Source of the DNA: Phragmitibacter flavus
GTDB taxonomy: Bacteria; Verrucomicrobiota; Verrucomicrobiia; Verrucomicrobiales; Verrucomicrobiaceae
Length of the DNA: 64,000 bases
Assembly: GCF_005780165.1 (NCBI RefSeq)
Contig: NZ_VAUV01000017.1
Location: 62,001-126,000 of the forward strand
Direction of reading: 5' to 3'
The notes beneath the pieces were generated by a model, which saw nothing but the letters and a program-made list of their open reading frames with translations, ran no database searches and was not told the origin of the DNA. Below are positions 5,017 through 15,925 of this stretch, piece by piece. The translations under genes were made by a program, and so were the position numbers. The stretch's first letter is position 1, and each line of letters opens with the position of its first letter.

Positions 5017-5050
5017 GAAACTCCCTCCTCCGAAGCCCTCACCATGGAGC

Positions 5051-5481
5051 GCCGACGTCTCGTCGGCCGTCCTCCCCCCCTTCAGTCGGACCACCGATGT
5101 GTCATCGGTCAACACAGCAGCAGAGAAGCGCTACGTCGCGTCCGAAACCATTCATTCCCAACGACTCAACGGCCTCAATCAAGTCCCCAATCCCCAGGCA
5201 TCTTCTTTCCTCCTCGCCTCGAAACCTTCACGCAAAAAAGAAAACCACCCGCCTTTACCAAAAACCCCTTCGCGCCCAAACGAATTCTAGTCCGATGACA
5301 CATCGGCCCTCCATGGACCCCCGACGTCACGTCGGCCAATCAATCCTCTCCAGTCGCCCCCCATGGAGCGCCGACGTGTCGTCGGCAATCCAATCCTCTT
5401 TAGTCGGACCACCGATGTGTCATCGGTCACCCCCCCTCAACCCCAGCATCCCCCAAACCGGACCACCGACGTTCCGTCGGT
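5051..5481. repeat. Cluster of seven short palindromes with three-base loops
   Basis: Seven perfect stems of 6-7 bp with a three-base loop occur at 5051-5067 (loop TCT), 5093-5109 (TGT), 5292-5306 (ACA), 5321-5335 (TCA), 5370-5386 (TGT), 5411-5427 (TGT) and 5465-5481 (TTC). Two subfamilies are visible: GCCGACG-loop-CGTCGGC preceded by CCATGGAGC, and ACCGATG-loop-CATCGGT preceded by GTCGGACC. Flanks are conserved too, so this is a repeat family and not chance symmetry. There is no gene I can support in 4972-6021, apart from the other repeats listed there. Confidence 0.8.
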
Positions 5482-5534
5482 CACCACTCCACCTCCGACT
5501 TCCGACTTCCCACCTCCGACTTCAAAAAACCAAC

Positions 5535-5870
5535 CCCTCACATCCAAAATTCGCTCAATCACACCAGAATTTTGATCGCTTACATTCAAAAACCGTCCGC
5601 ATACAGCGACAAACCGACCGCTGACAGTGAACAATCACCCGCTTACAATGGCAAATCGATCAAGTGCAGCGAAAAGTTGATCGCCTACAACAGCCAACAG
5701 GTAACTTACACTAAAAAACCGCTCACGTGCAGTCACCAAGTGACCGATTACAATAGAAAAGCACTCGCTTACATCGCAAAACCGGCCGCTCACATAAAAA
5801 ATCCGATCGCGCGCAGTAAAAAACCAACCGCTTACATTCAAATTTTGTCCGCATACACGCAAAATTTGCG
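5535..5870. repeat. Degenerate 21-bp tandem array, 16 units
   Basis: Sixteen consecutive 21-bp units fill this stretch exactly, with a weaker unit before it (5514-5534) and decayed ones after. The consensus is CGCTTACA, four variable bases, then an A-rich block and CCG. In all sixteen units positions 7-8 are CA, and positions 12-16 hold a run of A in nearly all. The period equals two helical turns, so the A-runs fall on one face of the helix. The plus strand is open as a heptapeptide repeat (AYxxKPx) and the minus strand is partly open too. I found no start codon with a ribosome site, so it is annotated as a repeat and not a gene. Confidence 0.85.
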
Positions 5871-6105
5871 CTTGATTGCTCAAACCGTTCAAAATCCAAA
5901 AAAACCGTTGCACGCATCCATCACAACCTTGCATACTCTCCAACAGTTTATTTCCTATACACTATTTACCCATATCCGAATCTCCTAAACACTTCCTCAT
6001 TACGTTCTTAATTTCTCCTCAATGGTTAGCCAAGCAGCTTCTCTGTTAATCCCATCTATTAGTCTCCTCTCCGCCAATGAGGGAGAGAAGTCCCACCGCT
6101 CCATC

Positions 6106-6363
6106 GATCTGCTCGGCCACGTTTATGACTGGAGCGGAGCGAAAAAGACTGCCGCAGGTAGCCCGAAAGGTGAGCGCGGCGGCACTCATCAATATCTCCT
6201 CACCCGCTTCACCAGTGCCGAGGGCCAGAATGGCGGTCACTTCTACCCGTCGTCTCGCATTGTGCACTACCCAGTCGAGACGCTGGCCCCCTTCGAAGGC
6301 CGCATCTACGACCCCGCCTGCGTCTCCCGCGGTATGTTCGGCAAGTCCGAGAAAGGCATCGCC
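6106..6363 (+). pseudogene. Decayed fragment of a type I restriction methylase (HsdM-like)
   Basis: The translated stretch reads DLLGHVY, an unrelated segment of about 21 residues, then YLLTRFTSAEGQNGGHFY, VETLAPFEGRIYDPAC and GMFGKSEK. This follows the N6-adenine methylase core of HsdM proteins, where the order is DxLGxVYEYFL, F-AEGKxGGxFYTP, VExLxPxxGRxYDPxCGSGGMF and QSEKF. The glycine-rich SAM motif is damaged (CVSRGMF in place of CGSGGMF), the TP of FYTP is lost, and the rest of the gene is absent. It is a remnant lying directly upstream of hamA, and it marks an earlier defence locus at this site. Confidence 0.75.
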
Positions 6364-6424
6364 CCCCCCGGCGTTAATCGGTCCGATTCCTCGCAATAAG
6401 GGAGACACCAATCTAATCAATTTT

Positions 6425-7414
6425 ATGAACGGCCAATCCTCACCTGAGTTCTCCGCGCTTTTGACAGCTCAGCAGGACTTTTCCGTGTGTGTTAAGTGTG
6501 CCAAGGAATCGGTTGATACAGATGCCCCACGGGTAGATTATCTTTATTTGCGCTTTAAGGAAGCGACCCCTGACGAAGCTGGATTGGCCGAAATCGTCTA
6601 TCATCAGATTGTAAACTACGCGATCCCGAGGAAAAAGATAAGGGAGCTTATCGAGCGCAGCCAATCGAATCCTCTGGATTTTAGTCTGCACAGCAAAATT
6701 TTCGAGGAAGCGAAGCGGGCGTTTATCAGGTATGACTCCAAGGCAACCGGACCGATGGCCAATATTCGGTATGGAGAGATCGGTGAAGTGATAGCCTTTT
6801 GCGTTGCGTCCCACTTTTTAACCGCTGGTCAGGTCGCTGCAAAAATGGCGCTGAAGACCAACGCAGAAATGCCAGTGTTCGGACTCGACGGAATTCACGT
6901 GCGCGGGGAGTCTGACGGAACCATTACCGTGTATTTTATGGAGGCCAAGGTCGTGGGGGAGGCGGAGTCGGGGGCAGAGCAATATGCTAAATCCGCCGGT
7001 GGCTTTGATAATGATCGCAAGCATAAATTGAATGAGCAGCGCATCGCACGTGATCTAAGCAACTTTGATATGTTTGAGGGCGCATTAAGGGAGGCTGCCC
7101 TGAATTATTTCGATCCCTATGGCCAAGCGAGCGAGAACGTGCGTGAACGCTTTGTTGGCGTTGTCGTCTATAGCGAACCCTTGTTTGGAACTAAAATCCC
7201 GGTAAATGATGCAACACCACTTGACGCGCATGAGAAGCATTTCGTGAAGAGCTTCGAAAGTCTCTTCGGAGGATTTAAGTCAGCTTTGGAAAAAGCATTG
7301 AAGAGCCATAGTGCCGAGCCCGGGCGTTGCCGGGCATTCTTCTTGGCAGTCCCAGACACTGGGGAATTAAAAAAGCGTTTCGCACAACAAATGGCAAATG
7401 AGCACATTCGCTGA
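6425..7414 (+). CDS. hamA: HamA-like DUF1837 nuclease of a Hachiman defence system
   Basis: A 329-residue protein with the DUF1837 signature of HamA, the effector of Hachiman anti-phage systems. A PD-(D/E)xK-type site is visible: Asp155 in FGLDGIHV and Glu173-x-Lys175 in YFMEAKV, preceded by a helix with YGEIGEVIAF. By family knowledge HamA is held inactive by HamB and degrades DNA when the helicase senses damage or invading DNA. The ATG at 6425 is the first in-frame start after the hsdM remnant; the purine-rich stretch at 6398-6404 is 20 bp away, further than usual. The gene overlaps hamB by 17 bp. Codon use is less C-ending than in surrounding genes, which suggests horizontal transfer. Confidence 0.85.
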   Translation: MNGQSSPEFSALLTAQQDFSVCVKCAKESVDTDAPRVDYLYLRFKEATPDEAGLAEIVYHQIVNYAIPRKKIRELIERSQSNPLDFSLHSKIFEEAKRAFIRYDSKATGPMANIRYGEIGEVIAFCVASHFLTAGQVAAKMALKTNAEMPVFGLDGIHVRGESDGTITVYFMEAKVVGEAESGAEQYAKSAGGFDNDRKHKLNEQRIARDLSNFDMFEGALREAALNYFDPYGQASENVRERFVGVVVYSEPLFGTKIPVNDATPLDAHEKHFVKSFESLFGGFKSALEKALKSHSAEPGRCRAFFLAVPDTGELKKRFAQQMANEHIR

Positions 7415-9962
7415 AGAACTAGCCCTTACGGTCAAAAGGCACGAGAAGTTTTGGTTGGATGTTGAGGTTGCCTCTGCGGCTGCGATGCGTCATCTGCTTC
7501 CCGGTGTGGCGTTCAACCCCCCGCAAAAAGGGCATGATGAGCATTTGCTATGGAGACTGCTCCGGTCCGCTTCCGTTCTCTCACAAACAGCTAATGATCG
7601 TGACAAAGGTTTAGCCCAAGATCTCGCACTGTTCATTGCGGTGACCTCCGAAGATGCAAAGACCAAGGCTTATGCTTGTGATCTTTTTTCGGAGTTGGGC
7701 AATCATCCTGGGTCCCAGAGGCTGGAGCAACAACTGAGGATTGAAGATGATTTTTTACTCTCCTCGATCAGGCGAGCGGTGCTTTGCGCTTTCAATACTG
7801 TGTCGGTCGCAGAAACGCCTTATGCTTTCACGGATTTCCAATACGGATTGTGGTCGAAATTGCCCCAAATAAAAGCCGGAGCAGTGTCTGCGCCGACTTC
7901 AGCTGGCAAATCGTTTGTTGTCATTGAGCATCTTTGCCAGAGGGCGGTGAATGAAGATAAGTTCGCAGCTGTGTTCGTGGCACCAACCAGGGCGCTTCTT
8001 GGAGAGGTGCACGCGAAGATCAGCAATCGGCTTCGGGAGCACGAAGAAACCATACGAGTTTCGACCATCCCAACCCTGGACTCCGAGGATAAGGAAAAGC
8101 AGATTTTCGTTTTAACCCAGGAGCGACTTCAGGTCTTGTTAGCAATTTGGGATGGCAAGTTCGATTTGGTTATTGTGGATGAAGCGCAAGGTATTGGCGA
8201 TGATTCCCGGGGCATGATTCTTCAGGAATGCCTGGAGAATATTGTGATGCGAGGCCCAAAAGCTCAGTTCCTGTTTCTTGCTCCCGGAGCGTCCGGTTTC
8301 GAGGCCTTAGCGACAGCAGTAAATCTCGCAAAGATCGACGTTGCGGAAACTGAACTTTCACCGGTCATTCAGAATCGGATAGTGGTGAGTCAGACCGTTG
8401 GAGATGAATCCAGTCTTGACGTTTCGATGCTGGCTGATGTGCGTCGAGTTAAGATTGGAACTTTGAATGCCAAGCGTGGTTTTGGAAATGGTAACACCCT
8501 TCTAGCCGCCGTTGCCCTTGAGTTGGGAAAGAGCGGAGGATCACTTGTGTATGGGACCGGGCCGGCAGATGCAGAGAAGGTTGCCAGCCAGATTGCTTCG
8601 GACATCGAACCAATCGAGAACCCCCGACTTAAAGAGCTTTCTAAGTTCGTAATACAGCATGTGCATGCCAAATATTCCCTGGCGAGTCACGTGCTAAGAG
8701 GCGTTGGCTTCCACTATGGCAAAATGCCGAGTCTGCTGAGGGAGGCACTGGAGCAGGCGTTTCAAGCTGGAGATTTAAAATACCTGGTATGCACGACCAC
8801 ACTTTTCCAAGGAGTAAATTTGCCTGCGAGAAACGTCTTCATCGACACACCTACCCGTGGACGTAATGATAAGCTAGATGCTGCTTCTCTTTGGAATTTC
8901 GCGGGACGCGCGGGCCGACTGGGCAAAGAGATTGTCGGTAATGTATTTTTGGTTGATTACGATAAATGGGAATCCAAACCTTTCACAGCGAAAGCAAAAT
9001 TTGCTATAGCCCCATCTTTCAAGAGAGTTGTATCAGAGAACGCGATTCAGATCACCGCTTGGCTTAGTAGCGAGATTTTTGAAGAAAGCTCCGACTCGGT
9101 TGCCACGCTGGAAACGGCTGGGGGCTTGATGATGTCCCATGCAGCCCGCGGAAGCCTGCGGCAGTTTGTCAAAAGGACAATTGGAAAGTCTATTGATGCT
9201 GTGGAATCCGAGGATCTCGTCTCCGCTGCGGAGGTGGCCTTCAAGGAGTTAGACCTTCCGATTGAGGCATTGTCCATCAACTGGACGGTTAATCCATTTG
9301 GACAGGCGCGTCTATTAAAGCGTTTTCGGGAAAAGATTAAGGATGGCAAAGTTGACGATCTCATTCCAGTCCACCCTGTTCCATGGAGCATGTCTATTTA
9401 TTCACGCTATGTGGGGATCTTTTCACGGCTAAATCGTGAGATTTTTGGGAAGTCAGCTTCTCGCAAATTCAATAACCGCCTTGCAAGTGATGCCTTGGCT
9501 TGGATGGGGGGTAAACCTTTGCCAGTAATAATTGGCAAAAGAATTTCTTTTGCCCAGACTCAGCGAAGTAACGTCAAAATTGACACCCAAGTGCGTGGTG
9601 TCTTCGACTTTATTGAAGATACCCTTCGCTTCAAATATGTGCAGCTTGGTCGTTGCTATGTTGATCTCCTGAAGTTCGCTCTGGAAGAAGCAGAATTGCA
9701 TGACGCTGCGAAAAGCGTCTATGACTTCCCTTTGGCCTTGGAGCTAGGAGTATCCTCGATTGCGGGGCAAGCGTTCGTTGAACTCGGACTATCTAGGATC
9801 ACTTCCGCGACATTGGAGGCTCTTATTCCCGATTCAAAGCCAACAGTAGATCGTGCCCGGGAGTGGATCGCAGGCCTCTCGGAAGTGGGATCCAAGCTCT
9901 CACGGGTAATCTGGGAGGAATTGCTGAGGAAGGGGCTTGTGCGATCAGAGGAGCCGATTTAG
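7398..9962 (+). CDS. hamB: HamB-like superfamily 2 helicase of a Hachiman defence system
   Basis: An 854-residue helicase. Walker A is APTSAGKS (165-172), motif Ia is APTRAL (195-200), motif II is DEAQ (261-264), and the second RecA-like domain shows FQGVNLPARNVFIDTP and the arginine-bearing FAGRAGRLG. A helical N-terminus of about 150 residues precedes the first RecA domain and a C-terminal region of about 300 residues follows, as in HamB. In the known system HamB loads on DNA and controls the HamA nuclease. The overlap with hamA implies translational coupling and fixed stoichiometry. Composition is AT-richer than the chromosome around it. No third gene of the system is seen; 9963 onward is non-coding. 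Confidence 0.88.
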   Translation: MSTFAEELALTVKRHEKFWLDVEVASAAAMRHLLPGVAFNPPQKGHDEHLLWRLLRSASVLSQTANDRDKGLAQDLALFIAVTSEDAKTKAYACDLFSELGNHPGSQRLEQQLRIEDDFLLSSIRRAVLCAFNTVSVAETPYAFTDFQYGLWSKLPQIKAGAVSAPTSAGKSFVVIEHLCQRAVNEDKFAAVFVAPTRALLGEVHAKISNRLREHEETIRVSTIPTLDSEDKEKQIFVLTQERLQVLLAIWDGKFDLVIVDEAQGIGDDSRGMILQECLENIVMRGPKAQFLFLAPGASGFEALATAVNLAKIDVAETELSPVIQNRIVVSQTVGDESSLDVSMLADVRRVKIGTLNAKRGFGNGNTLLAAVALELGKSGGSLVYGTGPADAEKVASQIASDIEPIENPRLKELSKFVIQHVHAKYSLASHVLRGVGFHYGKMPSLLREALEQAFQAGDLKYLVCTTTLFQGVNLPARNVFIDTPTRGRNDKLDAASLWNFAGRAGRLGKEIVGNVFLVDYDKWESKPFTAKAKFAIAPSFKRVVSENAIQITAWLSSEIFEESSDSVATLETAGGLMMSHAARGSLRQFVKRTIGKSIDAVESEDLVSAAEVAFKELDLPIEALSINWTVNPFGQARLLKRFREKIKDGKVDDLIPVHPVPWSMSIYSRYVGIFSRLNREIFGKSASRKFNNRLASDALAWMGGKPLPVIIGKRISFAQTQRSNVKIDTQVRGVFDFIEDTLRFKYVQLGRCYVDLLKFALEEAELHDAAKSVYDFPLALELGVSSIAGQAFVELGLSRITSATLEALIPDSKPTVDRAREWIAGLSEVGSKLSRVIWEELLRKGLVRSEEPI

Positions 9963-10287
9963 AAACGACCATTTTTAGATAGAGTCCACAGTGGGGCGGT
10001 GAACGGCTAGGCGATGACGTCTGCATCAGCCGCCGCATTAGACTCCCTCGCGGCCCGACTCGGTCTCGCTTCGCCCGAAGCGTTGCGTTGTCCATCTCAC
10101 TAGCCTCACTTGGCTCCTTAGGTTCCAAGCGCCTCTGAGAGCCTCCTTGGCGCATTAGGATTAGGTCCATCGTGTCGTTCTGCGCAACTCGAATCTCCGC
10201 TCGTTCGCAATGGAAAAGGAGCGTGGGCACTCCTGCCCGCCATCCTACCAATACCGGCGAAGCCACAGAAAAGTCCCAGCGGACAGA
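9963..10287. other. Non-coding, hairpin-rich border of the defence island
   Basis: No gene is supported here. The stretch holds short inverted repeats, for example CGCTTCG-CCC-GAAGCG near 10067-10082 and GGGCA...TGCCC near 10226-10239. The base composition returns to that of the chromosome. It may be the scar left by island insertion. No attachment site with direct repeats was found by eye. Confidence 0.5.
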
Positions 10288-10296
10288 ATGTCCGCT
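10278..10296. repeat. Palindrome with 8-bp stem and three-base loop
   Basis: AGCGGACA, loop GAA, TGTCCGCT. It has the same build as the palindromes at 5051-5481. It overlaps the putative start codon (10288) of the following pseudogene. Confidence 0.6.
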
Positions 10297-10740
10297 CCAC
10301 CCACACTTAACGCCACCTCACCGACCCGCAACACTAACCGGGTGACCCGGTTCCTCACCGCCCTCATCTTCCTACTTTTCTCCTTCATCGGCCCCACCAA
10401 CGCCGAAAGTCCCGGCAGTTCCTCCTGGAATCCGCTGCGTCTCCACCAACAATCCCGCGCTCTTCGCACCCAACTCGACCAATTCGAAACCGACCTCCGT
10501 CAGTTCCCCGCTCCAAACGTCACCTAACAAACCCACGGTCGCATCGACTTCCATGGCCGCGCCCAACATCTGGCTTGGCTCGAACTCGACCTCGGCGAAT
10601 CCACCACTCCCGAACAAATCGTCTTGTTCCCCGCCGCATCAGCGACCCCTCACCCGGCGATCCCGACAGCGGTTTCCCGTCCGAAATCACCGTTATCTCC
10701 GATTCGACATCCAAAGCATCGACCACGAAAACTCAACACC
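10288..10740 (+). pseudogene. Broken gene for an exported protein with a discoidin-like start
   Basis: From ATG 10288 the frame encodes a basic N-terminus, a hydrophobic signal segment (FLTALIFLLFSFIG) and a helical stretch (LHQQSRALRTQLDQFETDL). It meets TAA at 10525-10527. The same frame then continues with GRIDFHGRAQHLAWLELDLGE and TTPEQIVLFPA, and the sense resumes in another frame near 10640 with SDPSPGDPDSGFPSEITV. That pattern (wall of beta strands, 'W-x-E-x-D-L-G', 'Q-I-V-L-F-P-A') resembles F5/8 type C-like modules of planctomycete and verrucomicrobial membrane proteins. One stop plus one frameshift and loss of the rest indicate a pseudogene next to the island edge. Confidence 0.6.
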
Positions 10741-15133: not shown

Positions 15134-15175
15134 CATCCTTCATCCCTCATCCCTCATCCTTCATCCTTCATCCTT
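15134..15175. repeat. Six tandem copies of a 7-bp unit
   Basis: The unit is CATCCTT or CATCCCT, repeated six times without gaps. The array spans the stop codon of the K+ channel gene (15161-15163). Slippage would alter only the last few residues of the channel and the spacer before the oxidoreductase gene. Confidence 0.8.
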
Positions 15176-15925
15176 CAATCTCCTCTCCCCCAGCTTCGCC
15201 TCCATTCTTTCCAGACGCTCCTTCATCTCGTCCAACCTCCCCAACACCTCCCGCAGCTCCGACTCCTCCTTGTCCGCATCCGGCTTCAGCAACGCCGATG
15301 ACAAAAACGCGGTCAACGATCCAAACAATCCAATCCCCATCACCATCAATACCGACGCCACCATCCTCCCCTCCGGCGTCACTGGAAACCGGTCGCCATA
15401 ACCCACCGTCGTCATCGTCACAATCGACCACCAAAACGCATCCTGCACCGTCGTGATGTTCGACCCCGGAACATCCTGCTCAAAATGCAGAATCGCCATT
15501 GCCCCAATATCCAGCACCAGGAAACAGCCCATCAACACCGTCAGCAACAAGCTCTGCGCACTGCTCTTGCGCACCACCAAAATCAAATGCCTCGCCGACC
15601 GGATTGCCCGCAAAATTCGGAACACCCTGAAAAACCGCCCCCATCGAAAAATGTCCACCGATGGAATGCTCGAAATGAAATCGATCCATCCCCACTTCAA
15701 ATACGCAAGCTTGCTCGGTGCCGTCGCCAGCCGGTAAAAGAAGTCTCCCAGAAAAATCAAACACAACACGGTGTCCGTCCGGTTCAGCGCATCCCGCACA
15801 TTGGCATCAAGATCCAGGACCAGCTCCGCAAACAACGCCAGGAGCAGATACACCGACAAAAACGCCAGCACCAAATCCCACGGTTTGAGTTTGTGAGTCT
15901 CCGAATTCGCTCCCGTTGCTTTCAT
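15161..15925 (-). CDS. Voltage-gated-type potassium channel
   Basis: A 254-residue six-helix ion channel. The voltage-sensor region shows helices at about 16-37 and 52-66, then an arginine-rich S4-like helix (WGRFFRVFRILRAIRSARHLILVVRK). The pore domain has the selectivity filter TVGYGD at 173-178 between two membrane helices. The last 40 residues (DKEESELREVLGRLDEMKERLERMEAKLGERRLK) are a coiled coil that probably holds the tetramer together. It is transcribed divergently from the WD40-like gene. A 7-bp tandem repeat runs across its stop codon. The family call is secure; gating properties cannot be read from sequence. Confidence 0.92.
   Translation of the reverse strand: MKATGANSETHKLKPWDLVLAFLSVYLLLALFAELVLDLDANVRDALNRTDTVLCLIFLGDFFYRLATAPSKLAYLKWGWIDFISSIPSVDIFRWGRFFRVFRILRAIRSARHLILVVRKSSAQSLLLTVLMGCFLVLDIGAMAILHFEQDVPGSNITTVQDAFWWSIVTMTTVGYGDRFPVTPEGRMVASVLMVMGIGLFGSLTAFLSSALLKPDADKEESELREVLGRLDEMKERLERMEAKLGERRLKDEG

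Follow-up and report, generated by a model that had tools for sequence, protein, structure and literature searches.

How bacteria control their many acquired defence systems is under active study, and the defence regulators known so far (C proteins, WYL regulators, RptR) are mostly encoded with their system. Bacterial minisatellites, or VNTRs, are intergenic tandem units of constant length that are near-identical to one another. RptR operators consist of three 9-bp repeats with a TAGCTA palindrome, overlap the -10 element of type I restriction-modification (RM) islands and are kept across genomes in association with RM, the RptR repressor being the first gene of its operon (PMC12255303). C-boxes are short, sequence-specific operators upstream of type II RM genes and are served by the C gene of the same system (PMC12707154). 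At Bvg-activated promoters of Bordetella, BvgA~P occupies six sites, weak or medium, with 22-bp centres on one DNA face, where adjacent dimers bind and the target promoter is activated (PMC7250471).

Here we describe an array of degenerate 21-bp units in a window of 64,000 nucleotides from Phragmitibacter flavus (contig NZ_VAUV01000017.1, positions 62,001 to 126,000), together with two sister arrays in the same genome. They share with RptR operators (PMC12255303) the placing of direct repeats at the putative promoter of a defence island, of type I RM or another kind, yet their units are 21 bp long (CGCTTACATTCAAAAACCGAC), lack TAGCTA and end upstream of a promoter-like block, and the first open reading frame past them is an hsdM fragment, an ISP enzyme or hsdR instead of a small rptR gene. 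Like C-boxes, they are sites upstream of RM genes, whereas C-boxes come without long arrays (PMC12707154); in the three islands (type I, ISP and Hachiman), neither an XRE-type C gene nor any other regulator or partner-protein gene lies between array and cargo. RptR operators and C-boxes are the nearest systems in function, and both fail on defining features. The arrays also resemble those bound by BvgA~P in being weak, degenerate two-turn sites that reach the promoter (PMC7250471); BvgA, however, has six dimer sites at 22 bp, a known protein and other target genes, whereas here 16-20 units per array keep a constant two-turn spacing of exactly 21 bp, over 55 units in all three arrays, upstream of the promoter-like block. 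Unlike the units of VNTRs, those described here average 57% identity and stay in register with position-specific constraint. A CRISPR array was rejected, the units being contiguous, degenerate and without spacers, and so was an iteron-type origin, one of the roles floated in the preliminary description, as the flanks read hold no replication (rep) gene and the neighbours are a MocR-type regulator and Hachiman. A search of open-access full texts returned no description of such arrays. Judging from sequence, we tentatively propose that they may be cooperative two-turn arrays of weak protein-binding sites, within an upstream regulatory module common to defence operons.

Results

Architecture of the array

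The sixteen gap-free units at 5535-5870, with CA invariant at positions 7-8, are exactly as first reported (Table 1). In column counts, C7 and A8 are present in 16/16 units and C1 in 15/16, while A occurs 11, 12, 13, 14 and 10 times out of 16 at positions 12-16. All 16 units hold two to five A in this block, so that the A-block earlier credited to "almost every unit" is real, if slightly generously worded. Autocorrelation gives an identity of 0.55 at lags 21, 42 and 63, against about 0.25 at other lags. A periodicity score that averages identity over lags 21, 42 and 63 within stretches of 84 bp reaches 0.603 for the array; 400 composition-matched first-order Markov sequences do not exceed 0.417, and 60 such sequences do not exceed 0.433 for any period of 16-60. 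Mean unit-to-unit identity is about 57% whatever the distance between units, which argues for an old array with no fresh duplication; indeed, Tandem Repeats Finder detects only the last two units because the divergence of the others is too high. At the upstream edge, the unit at 5514 (CTCCGACTTCAAAAAACCAAC) has no CA and is array-like over one half, and a comparable junction unit exists in the sister array on contig C23. The unit at 5871 falls outside the pattern.

Table 1. Features of the array region and the downstream defence island (positions in the window).
Feature	Position	Strand	Description
REP-like palindromes (CCGACGTnnCGTCGG) and GACTTCC repeats, dispersed cluster	5042..5490	+	Present upstream of both sister arrays too
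Junction unit	5514..5534	+	Half array, half 7-bp GACTTCC-type repeat of the upstream side
21-bp array	5535..5870	+	16 ungapped units, consensus CGCTTACATTCAAAAACCGAC; C7-A8 invariant, A-rich at 12-16
Last two units	5839..5868	+	Include near-invariant unit CGCTTACATTCAAATTTTGTC, inverted repeat CAAATTTTG-N12-CAAAATTTG
Promoter-like block	5890..5937	+	CAAAATCCAAAAAAACCG; TTGCAC (5908-5913), 18 nt, CATACT (5932-5937); from alignment
hsdM fragment, type I RM methyltransferase	6022..6399	+	PADLOC MTase_I E=1.2e-18, Pfam N6_Mtase E=4.9e-9
hamA, Hachiman	6425..7414	+	PADLOC HamA E=7e-102, Pfam HamA E=2e-30
hamB helicase, Hachiman	7398..9962	+	PADLOC HamB E=9e-296
Sensor-kinase gene fragment (5' part)	10165..10693	+	Sole other genome match C23:2621-3190

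Sister arrays and strict register

A DNA search of the P. flavus genome (5.9 Mb, 44 contigs) identified the two sister arrays, with 20 units on contig C23 and 19 on contig C2. Both have the unit type of the window array and REP-like palindromes upstream, and a three-unit profile search of the same genome found no fourth array (best remaining match E=0.5). The palindrome CCATGGAGCGCCGACGTnnCGTCGGC has 37 copies in the genome (at most two mismatches), nine of them clustered beside the three arrays. Downstream, alignments reveal a block common to all three arrays that reads AAAA(T/C)CCAA(T/A)AAAAC, then TTGCRC, 18 nt and CATAMT, with some 60 bp between the end of the window array and the -10-like hexamer. 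By its consensus match, judged by eye, this block is plausibly a sigma-70 promoter; a promoter scan did not list it.

Across the 55 units of the three arrays, C7 is found in 55/55, A8 in 53/55, C1 in 54/55 and A14 in 51/55. Positions 1, 3, 14 and 15 are likewise strongly constrained, positions 9, 11 and 20 are nearly free, and the number of units departing from the commonest base runs from 0 to 36 of 55 depending on the position (chi-square 128); the earlier statement that the other positions vary freely was therefore too strong. The penultimate unit, CGCTTACA[T/C]T[C/G]AAATTTTGTC, is common to all three arrays, and unit -2 of the window array has identities of 100% and 90% to its counterparts on the other two contigs. 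Units are as similar between arrays as within them, position-by-position correspondence between arrays is confined to the promoter-proximal units, and unit turnover is highest at the distal end.

Register was compared over the last eight units of the three arrays, labelled A, B and C in pairwise alignments. A and B are 76% identical (24% differing) across 168 bp with zero indels, A and C differ by one whole-unit gap and one 1-bp gap, and B and C by one 2-bp gap, both short gaps lying within the final unit. The 150-bp 3' flanks, about 75% identical and aligned by the same procedure, show 8-13 gaps per pair. Such strict register means either that spacing is under selection or that it is enforced by the process that makes the arrays.

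Frequency of period-21 arrays

Pure intergenic 7-bp tandem repeats are common in this genome; examples are TCCGCAT, CCCACTG, AATGCGG and CATCCTT (sites at L191:12933-13090, L205:1-126 and window 15134-15177), and a further one is GAACCAA. The 7-bp repeats that adjoin the 21-bp arrays are a possible source of them. A 1.66-Mb sample of the genome, picked regardless of defence and including the window, yielded a single additional intergenic array of degenerate 21-bp units (C12:33142-33414), and the remaining period-21 matches were coiled-coil genes or pure 7-bp repeats. Signals that fell in coiled-coil heptads (L151, L154, L209 and L270, among others) or in the C-terminal peptide repeat of L136 were excluded as coding, and those at L191, L205 and L160:19756 as pure 7-bp repeats. 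The C12 array (equivalent to L160:13142-13414) comprises about 12 units of unrelated sequence, like TCCTTCTATTGAGTAGAAGGT, with a dyad-like TCCTTCT-N7-AGAAGGT, and it lies about 100 bp 3' of a gene for a 1416-aa NACHT-like ATPase, a possible defence gene. No period-21 array outside genes was found in 0.33 Mb from other genomes.

Of 88 hsdR or ISP loci from other genomes, intergenic arrays with a period of 21 or 42 were present at four, and other loci carry arrays of other periods. More than 90% (about 95%) of the RM loci examined lack an array, which indicates that such systems in general do not need one. Four arrays in about 0.26 Mb of hsdR/ISP loci against one in about 2 Mb of background is a marked enrichment, counted on few, hand-sorted loci.

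These frequencies, together with the register, bear on a neutral origin, in which slippage would make 7- and 21-bp repeats in a GC-rich genome and weak constraint near defence islands would spare them. The many 7-bp repeats genome-wide, some adjoining the array, the absence of arrays from most RM loci and the arrays of other periods elsewhere are in keeping with such a minisatellite. However, it does not account for old, diverged units without off-register indels, for the invariant CA, for the near-invariant promoter-proximal units or for a background sample with a single further array, itself beside the NACHT-like ATPase, and we regard it as rather unlikely.

Defence islands behind the three arrays

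All three arrays sit 5' of a defence operon, the preliminary description having placed the first beside a defence system. The window array is 5' of Hachiman, with the hsdM fragment between them, whereas the C23 array is 5' of a type ISP RM enzyme and the C2 array 5' of a type I RM operon. The ISP enzyme is 1375 aa as read and combines an Mrr-type nuclease, a helicase, an ISP coupler and a methylase, its ATG lying 146 bp from the array. On C2, the array is followed, 203 bp before the ATG, by hsdR, an FRG-domain gene and hsdM. No relatives of hamA were found in 387 other Verrucomicrobiota genomes. The hsdM fragment in the window seems to be what is left of earlier cargo, namely a type I RM operon that stood behind this upstream region before Hachiman took its place.

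Parts of the 3' flanks are common to the islands as well. Window positions 10165-10693 correspond to the 5' part of a sensor-kinase gene found 3' of the ISP island, and C23:3238-3589 and C2:414456-414807 are 91% identical. These common pieces indicate that the three islands are probably paralogous, with cargo exchanged between them. Since the arrays therefore lie in duplicated islands, their three defence contexts amount to about one independent association. The sensor-kinase gene, a fragment of which lies downstream of Hachiman, encodes F5/8 type C and HisKA_3 domains, and downstream of the ISP island it is complete and accompanied by its NarL-type regulator (L275:979-2985).

Shared 5' modules in front of different cargo, the hsdM fragment retained behind the window array and the piecewise common 3' flanks would all be expected of a recombination platform, in which REP palindromes, array and promoter supply homology for the exchange of defence cargo and the array itself regulates nothing. 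The greater unit turnover at the distal end is consistent with it too, as are the near-identical distal units of the array in another genus described below. Diverged units, on the other hand, make poor homology, and recombination leaves unexplained the strict register, the position-specific constraint at 57% identity and the adjoining promoter-like block; we consider it unlikely.

Arrays in related genomes

The preliminary description had proposed looking for the consensus next to defence genes in relatives, and this search did not bear the idea out. A profile search of 67 other genomes of the family gave one clear array of the same consensus, in a Phragmitibacter genome, with 10-11 units and CA in 9 of 11; two weaker matches proved to hold no array. 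The Phragmitibacter array lies between rho and a non-defence gene, hence an array of this consensus is not tied to defence. What does recur, unforeseen by that description, is the 21-bp architecture with other sequences.

In G004, a genome of another genus whose HsdR is 85% identical, a 21-bp array with units of about GAAATCTCTTTCTCGAGGTCG, a consensus unrelated to that of the window array, stands upstream of hsdR. Three copies were found in this genome, on C132, C261 and C38, located 5' of hsdR, hsdM and a second hsdR, respectively, and a search with the array revealed nothing convincing beyond them. Thus, the association with defence first noted for the window holds for all three arrays in P. 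flavus and, in another genus, for each of the three copies of an array of different sequence. A block, GAAAACACGTCCTTGCAGCC, is common to all three G004 copies downstream of the array. Contig C261 begins inside the array, continues into the block that it has in common with the first copy and then into hsdM and hsdS, and carries further defence genes (Septu ptuA-like, a TIR effector and HEC-01A-like). C38 retains a three-unit remnant and the shared block, followed by the start of the second hsdR (HSDR_N E=6e-29), which is interrupted by an IS1380-like transposase, named from its sequence. The distal units in G004 are near-identical fresh copies. The end of contig C354 and the start of C261 (L536:9104-9271 and L535:7-153) hold near-identical 21-bp repeats, CGTCGTCCGACCCCTCTCGAA; these are probably two parts of one longer array of fresh distal copies that was split during assembly.

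Two further genomes carry a 21-bp array of other sequence 5' of hsdR: G025, with an 80% identical hsdR (periodicity score 0.488, null maximum 0.401), and G433 from another family, with a 54% identical one (0.583, null maximum 0.456). An ISP locus of Phragmitibacter has a 42-bp array, and no clear array was seen at the close orthologues in G028 and G061, whose HsdR is about 80% identical. Arrays of the same period in the same place in two genera suggest that bacterial immunity genes share a control region whose sequence is rewritten rapidly.

Two wider candidate groups were rejected. An exact-pattern scan of species genomes for C.CTTACA.....AA gave 11 loci, mostly in ordinary contexts, Phragmitibacter aside, with one of them (L074) inside a type III-like RM locus. 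CTTACA at 21-bp spacing had 65 matches in viral contigs and decoy hexamers had 58 and more than 120; since decoys match comparably, no cross-phylum family was counted. For the longer pattern, 3 real matches compare with 0, 0, 2 and 0 for decoys. Arrays of 22-23 bp beside ISP loci in another family (L235, L253, L237, L238) were not taken as a link to defence, because the 23-bp one also turned up in a random sample of its genome. In G084 and G221, a 23-bp palindromic repeat family, GAGACCCTATAGGGGTC, is dispersed (L268:2743-2903, L235:6371-6485, L253:6343-6460).

Curvature, coding and RNA

The preliminary description had predicted that the phased A-runs bend the DNA. In a wedge model, the ratio of contour to end-to-end length is 1.12-1.16 for the three P. 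flavus arrays and about 1.06 for shuffles, and the G004 array is strongly curved (1.82). This modest curvature bears the prediction out weakly. In contrast, the 21-bp arrays at L160, L134 and L089 are uncurved, so bending is not the common property. Intrinsic curvature upstream of the promoter could in principle raise promoter activity with no dedicated protein, but the uncurved arrays and an invariant CA that curvature does not require make this explanation improbable.

The plus frame from 5572 is open across all three arrays and one minus frame has few stops, as would be expected of a heptapeptide-coding repeat, yet the plus frame is open because the consensus allows no stop in it; single changes in it are synonymous in 17% of cases where 21% would be expected, and those minus frames whose synonymous fraction is higher contain stops. 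A heptapeptide-coding minisatellite was accordingly rejected, no stop-free frame having a synonymous or third-position excess, and the units carry no codon-position or synonymous signal, in agreement with the earlier argument against peptide selection. Base pairs show no covariation within or between units beyond column composition, and an Rfam search of the array gave no match, contrary to the idea of a template for a structured RNA. Hairpin or cruciform units with compensatory change, considered for the dyads at L134, L160 and L089, were likewise rejected, as pairing did not exceed column composition. A coding or structured-RNA role is thus very improbable.

Discussion

Of the roles first suggested for the array, a regulatory or protein-binding one appears to fit the sequence best. 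In the mechanism that we tentatively favour, that of cooperative weak binding sites, the array would form the far end of a control region upstream of the operon, each unit being a putative weak site for a DNA-binding protein, with the CA step and the A block at its centre. The protein would pack cooperatively on one helix face at two-turn spacing, and the bound array would set or switch transcription of the defence operon. Selection would then hold the spacing and a handful of contact bases, leaving the other positions of the unit to drift, with gain and loss of units at the distal end. Cargo swapped behind the module could place several operons under one control. Cooperative packing on weak sites would explain the period, the fixed bases, the proximal fixity and distal turnover, the promoter-like block and the re-use ahead of unrelated defence operons. 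As to the protein, the NarL/LuxR-type response regulator (C23:307-966) encoded with the kinase 3' of the ISP island on C23 is a candidate binder, which we offer as a guess.

In other genera, the different unit sequence would presumably stem from co-evolution of protein and site or from rebuilding out of local repeats. A broader version, which we find doubtful, holds that lineage-specific 21-bp arrays upstream of defence operons are a fast-evolving, satellite-like cis-element, bound by a lineage-specific oligomerising protein that switches defence operons together. If so, these arrays would be the regulatory counterpart, in bacterial immunity, of centromere-type satellite evolution. The combination of period 21 and strict register may provide a sequence-independent signature for finding defence control regions and their binding protein. 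If a phased array with swappable cargo is indeed what these islands contain, a newly acquired system would come at once under existing control.
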